Position numbers and translations under genes: made by a program
Part shown: positions 1,199 through 20,974 of the stretch, one piece after another
Layout: each line of letters starts with the position of its first letter
Numbering within the stretch: the stretch's first letter is position 1
The notes under the pieces: generated by a model
What the model saw: the letters and a program-made list of their open reading frames with translations, nothing else
Told to the model about the DNA's origin: nothing
Databases searched by the model: none
Source of the DNA: Tannerellaceae bacterium
GTDB taxonomy: Bacteria > Bacteroidota > Bacteroidia > Bacteroidales > Tannerellaceae
DNA length: 21,583 nt
Assembly (NCBI GenBank): GCA_031273385.1
Contig: JAISRY010000154.1
Span: 1 to 21,583, forward strand
Direction: 5' to 3'

Positions 1199-1428
1199 TT
1201 ACAAACCCGCGCAACAGGGTCAACGCATTAAAATGTATGTTTCAGTACTGTGATTCGTCGTCATCATAAACGCAGCGTCGGCAATCCAGAGTATGCACCC
1301 TCTTTCCAAAGAGTATGCATACTTTTTCGGAAAAGGATGCATACTCTTTCGGGAAAGGATGCGCCCAGTCATGTTCGGAAGAAGTATCAACGGCTCTCGG
1401 AGAGAGCCATTTTAATGCGTTGACCCTG
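1199..1428. repeat. Mosaic intergenic repeat element bounded by inverted repeats
   Basis: The gene-free stretch 1097-1485 is mostly repeat modules. In order: TTACAAACCCGCGC (1199-1212, again at 17356-17369); the GGGTCAACGCATTAAAATG module (1214-1238); GATTCGTCGTCAT (1252-1264); a degenerate 'GCAATCCAGAG' repeat (1260-1291); a 22-bp-period array (1290-1377); and an inverted copy of the GGGTCAACG module (1408-1428). The two end copies match over 21 bp as inverted repeats about 170 bp apart. No transposase is present, so this looks like non-autonomous repeat DNA. I see no clear features in 1120-1198 beyond this. Confidence 0.7.
1290..1377 (+). repeat. 22-bp-period array, ATGCATAC core (4 units)
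   Basis: Four consecutive units start at 1290, 1312, 1334 and 1356, exactly 22 bp apart. Each begins AGTATGC or AGGATGC. The two middle units contain the palindromic core ATGCAT followed by ACTTTTTCGG or ACTCTTTCGG. The outer units carry ATGCACCC and ATGCGCCC. The rest of each unit varies. The period equals that of the array at 12676-12807, although the core differs. Confidence 0.75.
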
Positions 1429-11566: not shown

Positions 11567-11606
11567 CATGCTTAAATGCAGGTAACAAGTTGATGTATTT
11601 TTGATT

Positions 11607-12605
11607 ATGGCAATAGGAAATAGCTGTTCGATAGAAGAATATGTCGGTAAAACGATTGGGCTTACGTTCAAAGATCGAGGTTCGGCGAATGAGCTGGTAA
11701 AGTCGTTGCCGCAGTATCTTAAAGGGGCGTTCGGTTTCTCGCTTGTAGAGATTGAAAGCCAGGGGTTTTTATTGATGCTGCCATCGATGGAGGCCGATTT
11801 GTCCATTGCGCGGATCGTCAAGTTTGCCGGGCAGGTCCGTAAGCAAACAGGTAAATCGACGCTCATTCAGTTCAAGTCTATGGATAGTATCAGGCGGCGA
11901 ACCTTGATTAAACATAGGGAAAACTTTATCGTTCCTGATAAACAGATCTATATTCCCTCGTTGAGGATGTTCCTCAATGAAAGCGGGAGTATTCGGCAAT
12001 TTGCCGGTAAGGAGCGCCTTTCCCCCTCCGCCCAACTCCTGTTGCTGTACCATCTTCAAAAAAAATCATTGGAGGGATTGCCATTCAAGGATGTGGCGGA
12101 AATATTGAACTATTCAAAGAAAACGATATCCGTCGTGATTGCCGAACTCCAGAACCATTCTGTCTGTGAGGTGGAGCGGCTGAATGAGCGGAATAAAGTT
12201 TTGCGTTTTAACGAAAAAGGGTGTGAGCTGTGGAGTCGTGTTTCATCGTTGATGTCTTCCCCCGTTCAAAAAGTCTGGTATGTCGAAAAAAGCAGGCTTC
12301 CGGCAGGTTTACCCCTCTATGCTTCTTATGATACGGCGTTGGCTCATTACACCTTTATCGCCGATTCTTCGCAGATTTCATTTGCGATTGACAGGGGGTT
12401 TTTCACCGAACATCAAAAGATGTTTCAGGAATTTCTACATCCCGAAGAGGGAGATGTCCGGTTGGAAGTCTGGAAATACGATCCGGCGCTATTAGCCGAT
12501 AGGGAATTTGTAGATAAACTCTCCCTAACGCTCTGTTACAGAAATACGGATGATGAGCGAGTCAGAAAGGAAATAACAACAATGACAAATAAAATAGTAT
12601 GGTAG
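11607..12605 (+). CDS. Winged-helix regulator, AbiEi-antitoxin-like
   Basis: A 332-residue cytoplasmic protein without signal peptide or TM. Residues ~139-205 form a winged-helix domain (LSPSAQLLLLYHL, FKDVAEILNYSKKTISVVIAELQNHSVCEV, then a wing reaching KVLRFNEKG). The C-terminal half ends with LEVWKYDPALL, DKLSLTLCYRN, DDERVRKEI and a terminal KIVW. I recall this layout from Bacteroidales proteins annotated as MarR-like or AbiEi-like antitoxins, normally next to an AbiEii nucleotidyltransferase toxin; this is memory, not a search. No such partner is present. ATG 11607 is preferred to TTG 11601. A palindrome at its promoter suggests autoregulation. A repeat hairpin begins at its stop codon, so a downstream partner may have been lost. 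Confidence 0.65.
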   Translation: MAIGNSCSIEEYVGKTIGLTFKDRGSANELVKSLPQYLKGAFGFSLVEIESQGFLLMLPSMEADLSIARIVKFAGQVRKQTGKSTLIQFKSMDSIRRRTLIKHRENFIVPDKQIYIPSLRMFLNESGSIRQFAGKERLSPSAQLLLLYHLQKKSLEGLPFKDVAEILNYSKKTISVVIAELQNHSVCEVERLNERNKVLRFNEKGCELWSRVSSLMSSPVQKVWYVEKSRLPAGLPLYASYDTALAHYTFIADSSQISFAIDRGFFTEHQKMFQEFLHPEEGDVRLEVWKYDPALLADREFVDKLSLTLCYRNTDDERVRKEITTMTNKIVW

Positions 12606-12666
12606 CAGAGTCAACGCATTCGTCATTGGCGTACTATAACAATACATTTTAATGCGTTGACCCTGT
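12605..12666. repeat. Inverted-repeat hairpin of the GGGTCAACG module
   Basis: Starting at the last base of the regulator's stop codon, GCAGAGTCAACGCATT (12605-12620) pairs with the module at 12642-12666 (AATGCGTTGACCCTG inside it), with one mismatch. The right arm matches 1214-1238 over 25 bp on the opposite strand. It may help end transcription, but it has no T-run, so it is better called a dispersed repeat. Confidence 0.75.
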
Positions 12667-12675
12667 GGAGGAGAT

Positions 12676-12891
12676 ATACAATAGTGTAGCCGGACGTACA
12701 CAATTGTGTAAACGGGAACAGACAATTGTGTAGCTCGGACTACACAATAGTATAGCCGGGACAATACAGTTGTGTAGCCGGATCAATACAGTTGTGTAAA
12801 ACCGGAAATAGCTCTCGAGCAAATAAAAATAGCTCCCGACTGAAAAAAAATAGCTCCCGTCCCGTTGAAAATAGCTCCCGTCCGGCTTTTT
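12676..12891 (+). repeat. Phased array: six 22-bp units then four 21-bp units
   Basis: Six units of exactly 22 bp start at 12676, 12698, 12720, 12742, 12764 and 12786. They share a near-palindromic core of type ACAATTGTGTA, then usually GCCGG, with variable ends. Without a gap follow four 21-bp units at 12808, 12829, 12850 and 12871 with core ATAGCTCCCG and an A-rich remainder. There are no constant-repeat/unique-spacer units, no cas genes and no ORF. It is part of the 788-base gene-free stretch 12606-13393. The rest of that stretch is the hairpin before it, an unremarkable AT-rich part (12892-12959), a 21-bp duplication and the long palindrome. Confidence 0.85.
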
Positions 12892-12959
12892 TGAACATCG
12901 TCACACGCACCGTCTTCTTGTTTATTCTTTAGGATATATCCATACTAAATGCCTTACTT

Positions 12960-13001
12960 TTTATGGTACAAATTTGATTCTTTATGCTACAAAATTGAAG
13001 A
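12960..13001 (+). repeat. Two 21-bp direct repeats (TTTATGSTACAAA core)
   Basis: Two adjacent 21-bp units (12960-12980 and 12981-13001) share TTTATG-G/C-TACAAA and similar tails. The period equals that of the ATAGCTCCCG units. They directly precede the long palindrome. Confidence 0.6.
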
Positions 13002-13399
13002 AATAGCGCAAAAAGCCCTCCAGATAAAGTTTTCCTTTTTTTGCCTTCACAGCTTCACCTTTCTTGTAACGCATTGACTGATACTTTGGTGCGGTGAAGG
13101 TAGGGTGAAGGGAGGTGAATGAAAAGTGAAAGGGGGTGCCAGGGAGGGCGGTCTGACCTTATTGTGCAAATTCGTCGATAATCAATTGACGTTTGTTTTT
13201 GCCGGCTCGGGAATCGGTTGTTTTGATTATTTATACAATAAGGTGAACGAGGCCTTCCCGATACCCCGTTTCACCTTACCTTCACCTCCCTTCACCTTGC
13301 CTTCACCACATTCAGGTGTCAGCCAGTGTGTTACAAGAAAGGTGAAGCTGTGAAGGCAAAAAAAGGGAAACTTTATTTGGAGGGCTTTTTGCGCTATTT
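13001..13399. repeat. ~399-bp imperfect palindrome downstream of folE
   Basis: The outer arms, 13001-13080 and 13321-13399, are near-perfect inverted repeats (for example AAATAGCGCAAAAAGCCCTC against its complement ending at 13399; CTTCACAGCTTCACC; CTTGTAAC). Similarity continues inward through GGTGAAGG-rich segments (GGTGAAGGGAGGTGAA against TTCACCTCCCTTCACC) to ACCTTATTGT (near 13158) and its complement ACAATAAGGT (near 13236). The unpaired centre is only ~50-70 bp. The right end overlaps the folE stop codon. No transposase or credible protein lies inside. A MITE-like element or a long-hairpin RNA is possible. Confidence 0.85.
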
Positions 13400-13975
13400 G
13401 ATCAGGTTGATAAATTCTTCGCGCGTTTTGGCTTGCTGGAAGAAGCCGGTGAAATCGGAGGTCGTCGTGAGGGAATGTTGTTTCTCAACGCCCCGCATCT
13501 GCATACACATGTGCTGGGCTTCGATGACCACCATAACGCCTAAGGGGTTTAAGGTGCGCTGGATACATTCCTTGATTTGTAGCGTCATGCGCTCCTGTAT
13601 TTGCAGGCGGCGGGCAAAGATATCGACGACGCGGGGGATCTTGCTTAATCCGGTAATGTATTTGTTCGGGATATAGGCGACATGGGCTTTCCCGAAAAAC
13701 GGCAGCAGATGGTGCTCGCAAAGGGAAAAGAAATCAATATCCTTTACGATGATCATCTGTTTGTACCCCTCTTCGCGGAACATGGCGTCTTCCAACACCT
13801 TTTCAGGGTTTTCGTTATACCCTCCGGTCAGGAACTGCATGGCTTTCGCTACGCGTTCGGGGGTCTTGAGCAGCCCCTCGCGCCCGGGGTCTTCACCTAA
13901 CAACCCGATAATGCTTTTATAATACCCGGCGAGTTCTTTTCTTGTATCTAATGTCTCTTCGTCTATTTTCTTCAT
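13394..13975 (-). CDS. folE: GTP cyclohydrolase I
   Basis: A 193-residue cytosolic zinc enzyme converting GTP to 7,8-dihydroneopterin triphosphate, the first step to tetrahydrofolate. The zinc ligands are visible as Cys86 and His89 in [20 protein letters not shown] and Cys157 in [11 protein letters not shown]. The substrate-site region [20 protein letters not shown] and the closing [11 protein letters not shown] block are typical. Length is near normal for the family. It is the last gene of the DUF1599 - DoxX-like - tpiA - SPOR operon, 19 bases after the SPOR gene. Its stop codon lies inside the outer edge of a long palindromic repeat. Confidence 0.96.
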
Positions 13976-17163: not shown

Positions 17164-17171
17164 CGATTTGT

Positions 17172-17272
17172 TTTTATTCGGGAGCTATTTTTATTTGGTC
17201 AAGAGCTATTTGAAACGGGACGGGAGCTATTTTTATTTGCACGGGAGTGAAAATTTAACGTACACAATAGTG
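17172..17272 (-). repeat. 21-bp-period array, ATAGCTCCCG core, inverted orientation
   Basis: On the plus strand GAGCT or GAGTG recurs at 17182, 17203, 17224 and 17245, exactly 21 bp apart. The first and third units carry GGGAGCTATTTTTATTTG. Read on the minus strand these are the ATAGCTCCCG units of 12808-12891. One TACACAATAGTG (17261-17272) follows, corresponding to the 22-bp core of 12676-12807. Thus the order, 22-type then 21-type, is kept in an inverted, shortened copy. Confidence 0.8.
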
Positions 17273-20877: not shown

Positions 20878-20957
20878 GTGGTTTTTTCATAATAGTATTA
20901 GATTTAAGGTTAACAAAGTTGGTTAGGGGATGTCGGGAGACATCCTTTAATTTTTTT
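20878..20957 (+). ncRNA. Candidate ~80-nt small RNA with its own promoter and terminator
   Basis: Between a consensus promoter and an intrinsic terminator lies an AU-rich segment containing TTTTTTCATAATAG, TTAGATTTAAGGTTAAC and AAAGTTGG, then the hairpin. No ORF of note is present, and both flanking genes are on the other strand. So this is not a leader of anything in the window. I have an unverified impression that the TTAGATTTAAGGTTAAC block recurs in Bacteroidales leaders. The exact start is an estimate from the -7 box. The 237-base gap 20738-20974 shows nothing else clear. Confidence 0.5.
20928..20957 (+). terminator. Intrinsic terminator, plus strand
   Basis: GGATGTC (20928-20934), loop GGGA, GACATCC (20939-20945) form a perfect 7-bp stem followed by TTTAATTTTTTT. 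The T-run is only on the plus strand, so this does not serve the minus-strand FKBP gene. Confidence 0.75.
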
Positions 20958-20974
20958 ATCCCTCCGGTCATCCA

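Follow-up and report, generated by a model that had tools for sequence, protein, structure and literature searches.

A phased array of short dyads beside folE in a Tannerellaceae genome is one copy of a dispersed family

Between an open reading frame (ORF) and folE, a Tannerellaceae bacterium carries ten short repeat units whose period changes from 22 to 21 bp partway along the row. What are these units, and why are they spaced so evenly? The window, that is, the whole stretch of DNA analyzed here (21,583 nucleotides of contig JAISRY010000154.1), had been read in a first-pass annotation as containing six units of exactly 22 bp and then four of exactly 21 bp, each set with its own core, no gap at the switch, and widely varying bases outside the cores. 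That annotation suggested selection for spacing, for example, through cooperative protein binding on one DNA face, or alternatively a replication-based amplification. Our analysis identifies the array as one copy of a dispersed family, and the features of the window are listed in Table 1.

Table 1. Positions of the array, its neighbors, and related features in the window
Positions	Strand	Feature
1288-1367	+	Third 22-bp array type, ATGCAT core at 1293, 1315, and 1337, fourth unit degenerate
11601-12605	+	334-aa ORF, homologue of the first member of AbiEi/AbiEii-like gene pairs, without partner
12675-12798	+	Module A, six 14-bp dyads, 22-bp pitch
12675-12688, 12697-12710, 12719-12732	+	Module A dyads 1 to 3
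12741-12754, 12763-12776, 12785-12798	+	Module A dyads 4 to 6
12799-12805	+	A/B junction; insertion site in other copies
12806-12888	+	Module B, four 20-bp units plus one base each, core ATAGCTCCCG, centers 21 bp apart
12889-12995	+	Linking stretch, many indels, common to nine full-length copies
12996-13404		Fold-back module, inverted arms 12996-13171 and 13229-13404, 82% complementary
13394-13975	-	folE, on the other side of the array
17166-17271	-	Second copy, degenerate: three B units at 21 bp, one A core

Layout of the array and of its copies in the host genome

The arrangement of six 22-bp units followed by four 21-bp units was confirmed from the dyad centers and by Tandem Repeats Finder, which independently detected both the A and the B array (scores 99 and 135, and 73). 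The dyads of module A, with the 14-bp consensus TACACAATTGTGTA, are centered at 12681.5, 12703.5, 12725.5, 12747.5, 12769.5, and 12791.5, in steps of 22 bp, and the units of module B, with the sequence AAATAGCTCCCG, at 12815.5, 12836.5, 12857.5, and 12878.5, in steps of 21 bp. The cores are less uniform than first described: the B core is exact in three of the four units, but the exact A core ACAATTGTGTA occurs in only two of six. Nor do the modules join without a gap, as the center-to-center step across the switch is 24 bp. With up to two mismatches allowed, the A core occurs 15 times in the window versus 3.8 ± 2.2 times in shuffled sequences, none of which (0 of 100) reached 15, and the B core alone shows no excess in the window (20 versus 18.8). 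Pairs of spaced cores, which the annotation had recommended seeking in the whole genome, are plentiful there: A-A pairs at 22 bp occur at 103 places and B-B pairs at 21 bp at 153 (both strands, up to three mismatches), versus 0 for either reversed pattern.

A BLAST search of the host genome, an assembly of 251 contigs totaling 2.3 Mb at 70% completeness, yielded 84 matches; of 118 first-look candidates, 40 were scored. We examined 62 loci, namely, 30 found by BLAST, 31 stretches chosen by place, and one from the A-pair search of the family genomes, and called an A array where at least three cores with up to three changes each could be chained at distances of up to 50 bp, the spacing being otherwise free. 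In the 43 distinct A arrays recognized in this way the step was 22 bp in 164 of 167 instances and 44 bp in the other three, and the number of units was nearly fixed at five (37 arrays; four units in four arrays, and six in two, including the one in the window). B arrays with at least two cores numbered 48, in 61 of the 62 loci, and mostly spanned four units (38 arrays; three units in five, five in two, six in two, and two in one). Their centers were 21 bp apart in 118 of 130 steps, 42 bp in eight, 63 bp in one, and 22 bp in one; the remaining two steps (36 and 57 bp) come from a chance match inside an A spacer, and we read the two six-unit B arrays as those with this match.

Each B unit, judged from the printed sequences, is a 20-bp quasi-palindrome (AAATAG..CTATTT) plus one base, and its dyad nature is partial: the right arm is missing in many A-B copies. 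B units occur in both orientations, and all 12 directly neighboring pairs of opposite orientation keep the 21-bp center step; hence, individual units seem to have been inverted at their original position. The bases between the cores do differ, as the annotation stated, but within the genome they are not random (a GCCGG-like 8-mer, with 98 distinct forms among 170), and the spacers of the dispersed A copies are specific to their position in the array. With a nearly fixed unit number and position-specific spacers across dispersed copies, the replication-based local amplification suggested earlier finds no support for the copy in the window. Nor are the copies recent duplications of free length, which the annotation had named as grounds for giving up the idea of conserved spacing.

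The array is combined with other modules. In nine copies, it is followed by the linking stretch and then by a fold-back of about 410 bp, for a total of 663 to 735 bp. The fold-back of the window, whose two arms measure 176 bp each and which contains inner 11-bp repeats, belongs to a dispersed module, lies between the array and folE, and ends flush with the folE stop codon; behind folE at 13 other loci of the same genus, no fold-back was seen by eye in the up to 330 bp displayed. No clean empty site was demonstrable, as in G013, the closest relative, synteny near folE breaks down. Other orders also occur: A alone, B alone, B then A, A beside a fold-back, and B within the loop of a fold-back, the last of these at three other loci (L153, L159, and L167). 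A phage or plasmid origin was considered and rejected, since neither the A nor the B pair pattern had an exact match in viral contigs and BLAST gave no match among plasmid or phage records.

The window contains a further small element of 214 bp (positions 1215 to 1428), in which perfect 21-bp terminal inverted repeats (CAGGGTCAACGCATTAAAATG; 1215 to 1235 and 1408 to 1428) enclose the third array type with its own 22-bp period. The same repeat pair is found again at 12606 to 12666, immediately to the left of the A/B array.

The 26 A arrays of the host that could be placed relative to genes (17 were unplaceable) comprise 24 in intergenic regions and 2 in predicted ORFs; 11 are in convergent, 7 in divergent, and 6 in same-strand gaps, and their direction relative to the genes is mixed. 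In the window, the neighboring ORF scored weakly and below cutoff for a winged helix. Homologues of it were found in 8 of 40 genomes, including two copies in the window's own; all three genomes of that set with A pairs (G000, G013, and G020) have one, both G000 copies lie near an A array, and a 23-bp array (TATCACAGCA..GTGC; L178, 2817 to 2943) lies near the AbiEi-like gene of G020. Eight homologues read elsewhere all adjoin a nucleotidyltransferase gene, and we take the ORF and these neighbors to be AbiEi/AbiEii-like. We rejected the ORF product as a candidate for a protein binding the array, given its subthreshold winged-helix scores, the AbiEii-like partners, and the presence of the gene in five genomes without A pairs (G006, G015, G038, G041, and G042). 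The association between its homologues and the arrays is treated here as chance, arrays being dense in G000, and not as disproved.

Pitch and core in the host, its relatives, and other Bacteroidales

How strictly is the pitch kept? The 37 five-unit A arrays differ from their position consensus at 638 of 3774 sites and contain no indel. The remainder of the element, taken from the nine full-length copies as an internal control, shows 44 indel events alongside 798 substitutions. At the control ratio, A should contain 35 indels, and the Poisson chance of finding none is 5e-16; this value is indicative only, since the copies share descent and most loci were recruited through similarity or pitch, so that broken arrays may be undercounted. 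When the nine copies are compared pairwise (36 pairs), the array with its junction has 0.033 gap openings per substitution, versus 0.116 in the rest. The lack of indels beside so many substitutions supports well the conclusion that the pitch of the array is under constraint.

Conservation within the A core is dyad symmetric, with positions 2, 4, 5, and 6 and positions 9, 10, 11, and 13 of the 14 at 80 to 100%. In 213 A cores, there were 0 compensatory double changes versus 339 one-sided changes (and 3 other double changes), which argues that an RNA stem is not what A preserves.

The same core is found at the same pitch in other genera. The A pair pattern (22 bp, up to two mismatches) is present in 16 of 123 family genomes, the host included, and its reversed control in none. 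Among the 17 other genomes of the same genus searched, only G013 has A pairs; hence, the system is lineage specific, turns over fast, and cannot represent a chromosomal function conserved throughout the genus. When exact A cores were sought at any gap of 2 to 32 bases (steps of 14 to 44), 10 of the 123 genomes were positive, again including the host, and the steps in other genera, for the 48 listed of 68 places, were 22 in 35 instances, 44 in 9, 23 in 3, and 24 in 1; in the host genome, 26 of the 33 listed (of 36 places) were at 22 and 7 at 44. An exact-core search of 60 other genomes of the phylum from outside the order gave no match.

We inspected 15 loci from 14 other genomes, all of them recruited through the 22-bp pattern, and found steps between neighboring cores of 22 bp in 43 instances, 23 in 4, 44 in 2, 11 in 1, and 33 in 1, with a single array showing steps of 22, 11, and 33. 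Random spacing in relatives, which the annotation had named as evidence against its proposal, is not what is observed. The spacers of these loci are mostly distinct (39 of 43), most clearly in G020 and G095, where 12-bp cores are almost constant between mutually unlike spacers. The B pair pattern (up to one mismatch) was found in 3 of 60 genomes: the host (99), G004 (11), and G013 (3). In G004, the B units (L120, L125, L128, L130, and L132) form inverted pairs with A/T tracts and resemble bidirectional terminator hairpins.

The two-turn period extends beyond this core. Tandem Repeats Finder reported 153 rows, some overlapping, in 80 folE-centered loci of other genomes (818,535 bases), with 37 periods of 21 to 23, 5 of 18 to 20, and 2 of 24 to 26. 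A scan of intergenic regions (period 10 to 60, at least 38 matches of 60) gave 16 arrays of period 21 to 23 in 85 kb at the folE loci, 8 in 50 kb from the same family, 2 in 10 kb from the same genus, 3 in 38 kb from the order's other families, and 2 in 126 kb from elsewhere in the phylum. The density in Tannerellaceae-centered samples, of which the folE set also contains Dysgonomonas and other Bacteroidales, is about eleven times that found elsewhere in the phylum (P = 8e-6); for the other families of the order, the comparison with the rest of the phylum gives a P value of 0.08. In 11 of the 80 folE loci (L040, L043, L045, L049, L062, L064, L066, L077, L082, L085, and L091), an array of 21 to 24 bp lies closely behind folE, each with its own core.

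Leaving aside the rest of the phylum, the scan recovered 57 arrays, 29 at 21 to 23, 15 at 40 to 46, and 13 at other periods, and their cores vary between genomes. A palindrome score of at least 0.67 was reached by 22 of 29 arrays of period 20 to 24 versus 3 of 13 others (Fisher P = 0.002, in a comparison that leaves out the 15 arrays at 40 to 46), and the maximum at 300 random places was 0.62. Sixteen of the 29 arrays exceed the unrounded threshold, and these contain 11 compensatory changes versus 75 one-sided ones, with about 2 compensatory changes expected; this count is inflated because the palindrome center was chosen for maximal pairing, and it suggests that palindromy is kept somewhat better in these arrays than in A. 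The indel deficit relative to the internal control, the 22-bp pitch of the core elsewhere, and the 21- to 23-bp peak in the family together support the earlier suggestion of selection for spacing.

Phased protein sites and competing explanations

The array forms the left portion of a dispersed, noncoding element of modular build, and we hold with moderate confidence that its units are phased sites for a putative dimeric DNA-binding protein. In this element, module A provides five (here six) 14-bp dyads at a 22-bp pitch and module B four quasi-dyadic units at a 21-bp pitch, and both modules appear able to travel with the fold-back. Each unit would probably be the site of one dimer, and a pitch of about two helical turns would bring all these sites to the same side of the double helix, where dimers could bind cooperatively; the data fit such binding. 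If the dimers touch along this face, the dyad centers could not move, and selection would act on their position, so that spacers may drift and B units may flip in place while indels are removed. The nearly fixed number of sites, the turning of B units in place, and the free spacers would follow naturally from phased dimer binding. The outcome would be a compact intergenic nucleoprotein patch, which may act as local DNA architecture or as a block to transcription from neighboring genes, and the modules may, as a guess, have spread through transport with the fold-back.

The main rival is a nonautonomous, MITE-like transposon, in which a transposase would bind the A and B units and the unit number and pitch would serve transposition. 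The ends of Tn7 and Mu, with several 22-bp protein sites each, are a model for this reading, and the numerous dispersed copies, the combination of array, linking stretch, and long-armed fold-back common to nine of them, and the recombination of modules in several orders are what a transposon might leave behind. However, Tn7 and Mu duplicate their target and carry one motif at each of their ends, and neither feature was found here. At 27 A-B copies, the best flanking repeat averages 2.2 bp versus 2.8 bp in 200 mismatched pairs, no repeat reaches 6 bp (8% in the control), and the flanks listed for these copies have no common terminal repeat. The cores of A and B also differ, and the arrays of G020, G065, G095, and other genomes occupy few loci and differ in their spacers, whereas transposon copies look otherwise. 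We consider a transposon unlikely.

Could the units instead act as RNA, forming hairpins at transcript ends as terminators or mRNA stabilizers? In other genomes, 12 of 38 arrays with periods of 20 to 24 or 40 to 47 lie in convergent gaps, versus 14.5% expected (P = 0.006), and several A-like arrays of other genera lie a few to about 30 bases past stop codons; within the gaps of other genomes, the arrays are positioned as in random placement. The excess of compensatory changes in the palindromic units of other genomes would also suit hairpins, and the A array folds better as RNA than its shuffles (z = -5.9 on the plus strand and -3.0 on the minus strand), but a row of dyads gives such folding by itself. 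Against this reading stand the uncompensated changes in the host A cores, a B array that folds no better than its shuffles (z = -0.7 on both strands), and the 7 of 26 placed A arrays between divergent ORFs, and RNA hairpins do not need an exact pitch. We judge an RNA device to be quite unlikely. No Rfam family matched at the array. The sole Rfam match in the window, FopS, a Bacteroidetes small RNA family (RF04319; 64.4 bits, gathering score 56), lies outside the array at 20878 to 20960.

Very unlikely, in our view, is a neutral minisatellite that arose by tandem duplication, spread by chance, and merely inherited its pitch: the position-specific spacers imply that the host copies descend from a founder, and an exact gain or loss of two units, in phase, is seen between apparently orthologous loci (G065/G066 versus G079), but the indel deficit, the recurrence of the core at 22 bp in other genera with differing spacers, and the 21- to 23-bp period peak across unrelated cores all argue otherwise.

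Comparison with known systems and a possible wider class

The nearest described system that we found is BrickBuilt of Porphyromonas gingivalis, a MITE with a 23-nucleotide minisatellite in 19 copies, which has 1 to 22.8 units with 0 to 6% indels within elements, a leader and a tail with IS5-type terminal repeats, and repeats resembling target site duplications in three of four complete copies (PMC4596501). One copy, BrickBuilt_11, adjoins folE (PMC4596501), like the element in the window. Both systems belong to the same order and are intergenic (here, 24 of the 26 placed A arrays) and dispersed, and both have tandem units of about two helical turns (22 and 21 bp here) with a conserved and a variable part. 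In contrast to the variable unit number of BrickBuilt, the A arrays here consist of five units in 37 of 43 cases, and the B arrays span four in 38 of 48; A is free of indels and its unit is a dyad; and terminal inverted repeats with target site duplications were not found at our array, whose fold-back has long inverted arms of its own.

REP sequences are described as stem-loops of 20 to 40 bp that bear the tag GTAG or CGTC and are in most cases solitary or paired, at varied distances (PMC3733652). The likeness to REPs and BIMEs lies in the numerous small intergenic palindromes, at times grouped; the array here, by contrast, consists of 14-bp dyads at a single exact pitch. A further mark of REPs is their mobilization by a RAYT transposase.

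Plasmid iterons and phased operators are rows of direct repeats of about 22 bp bound on one face by dimers or monomers, and the array resembles them in having several such repeats in a row. In the center pitch it behaves as phased operators do, being constant near whole helical turns independently of the spacer sequence. Iterons, however, occupy a single location beside a rep gene, whereas here there are dozens of chromosomal copies with no shared neighbor gene among the loci read, and the neighbors in the window are the AbiEi-like ORF and folE in place of a replication initiator. CRISPR arrays have repeats of 24 to 48 bp, unique spacers of equal length, and cas genes; the dyads here measure 12 to 14 bp and the spacers 8 to 10 bp. 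No earlier description of a phased class was found in the open-access literature searched.

Tentatively, and with considerable doubt, we suggest that Tannerellaceae, and perhaps Bacteroidales more widely, may possess a general class of such arrays, in which a lineage-specific dyad is repeated about 3 to 10 times at 21 to 23 bp. These arrays could be landing strips for fast-evolving dimeric DNA-binding proteins that form phased intergenic filaments, an undescribed nucleoid-organizing or silencing system.

Members of the Bacteroidales rank among the main inhabitants of animal guts. Should unrelated arrays between genes converge on a pitch of two helical turns, a protein-DNA architecture would exist in these bacteria that is easily overlooked, because its geometry is common and its sequence is species specific. 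The arrays would be direct bait for finding the protein of this architecture. Moreover, minisatellite-like repeats of Bacteroidales may be constrained and hence would not be neutral typing markers.
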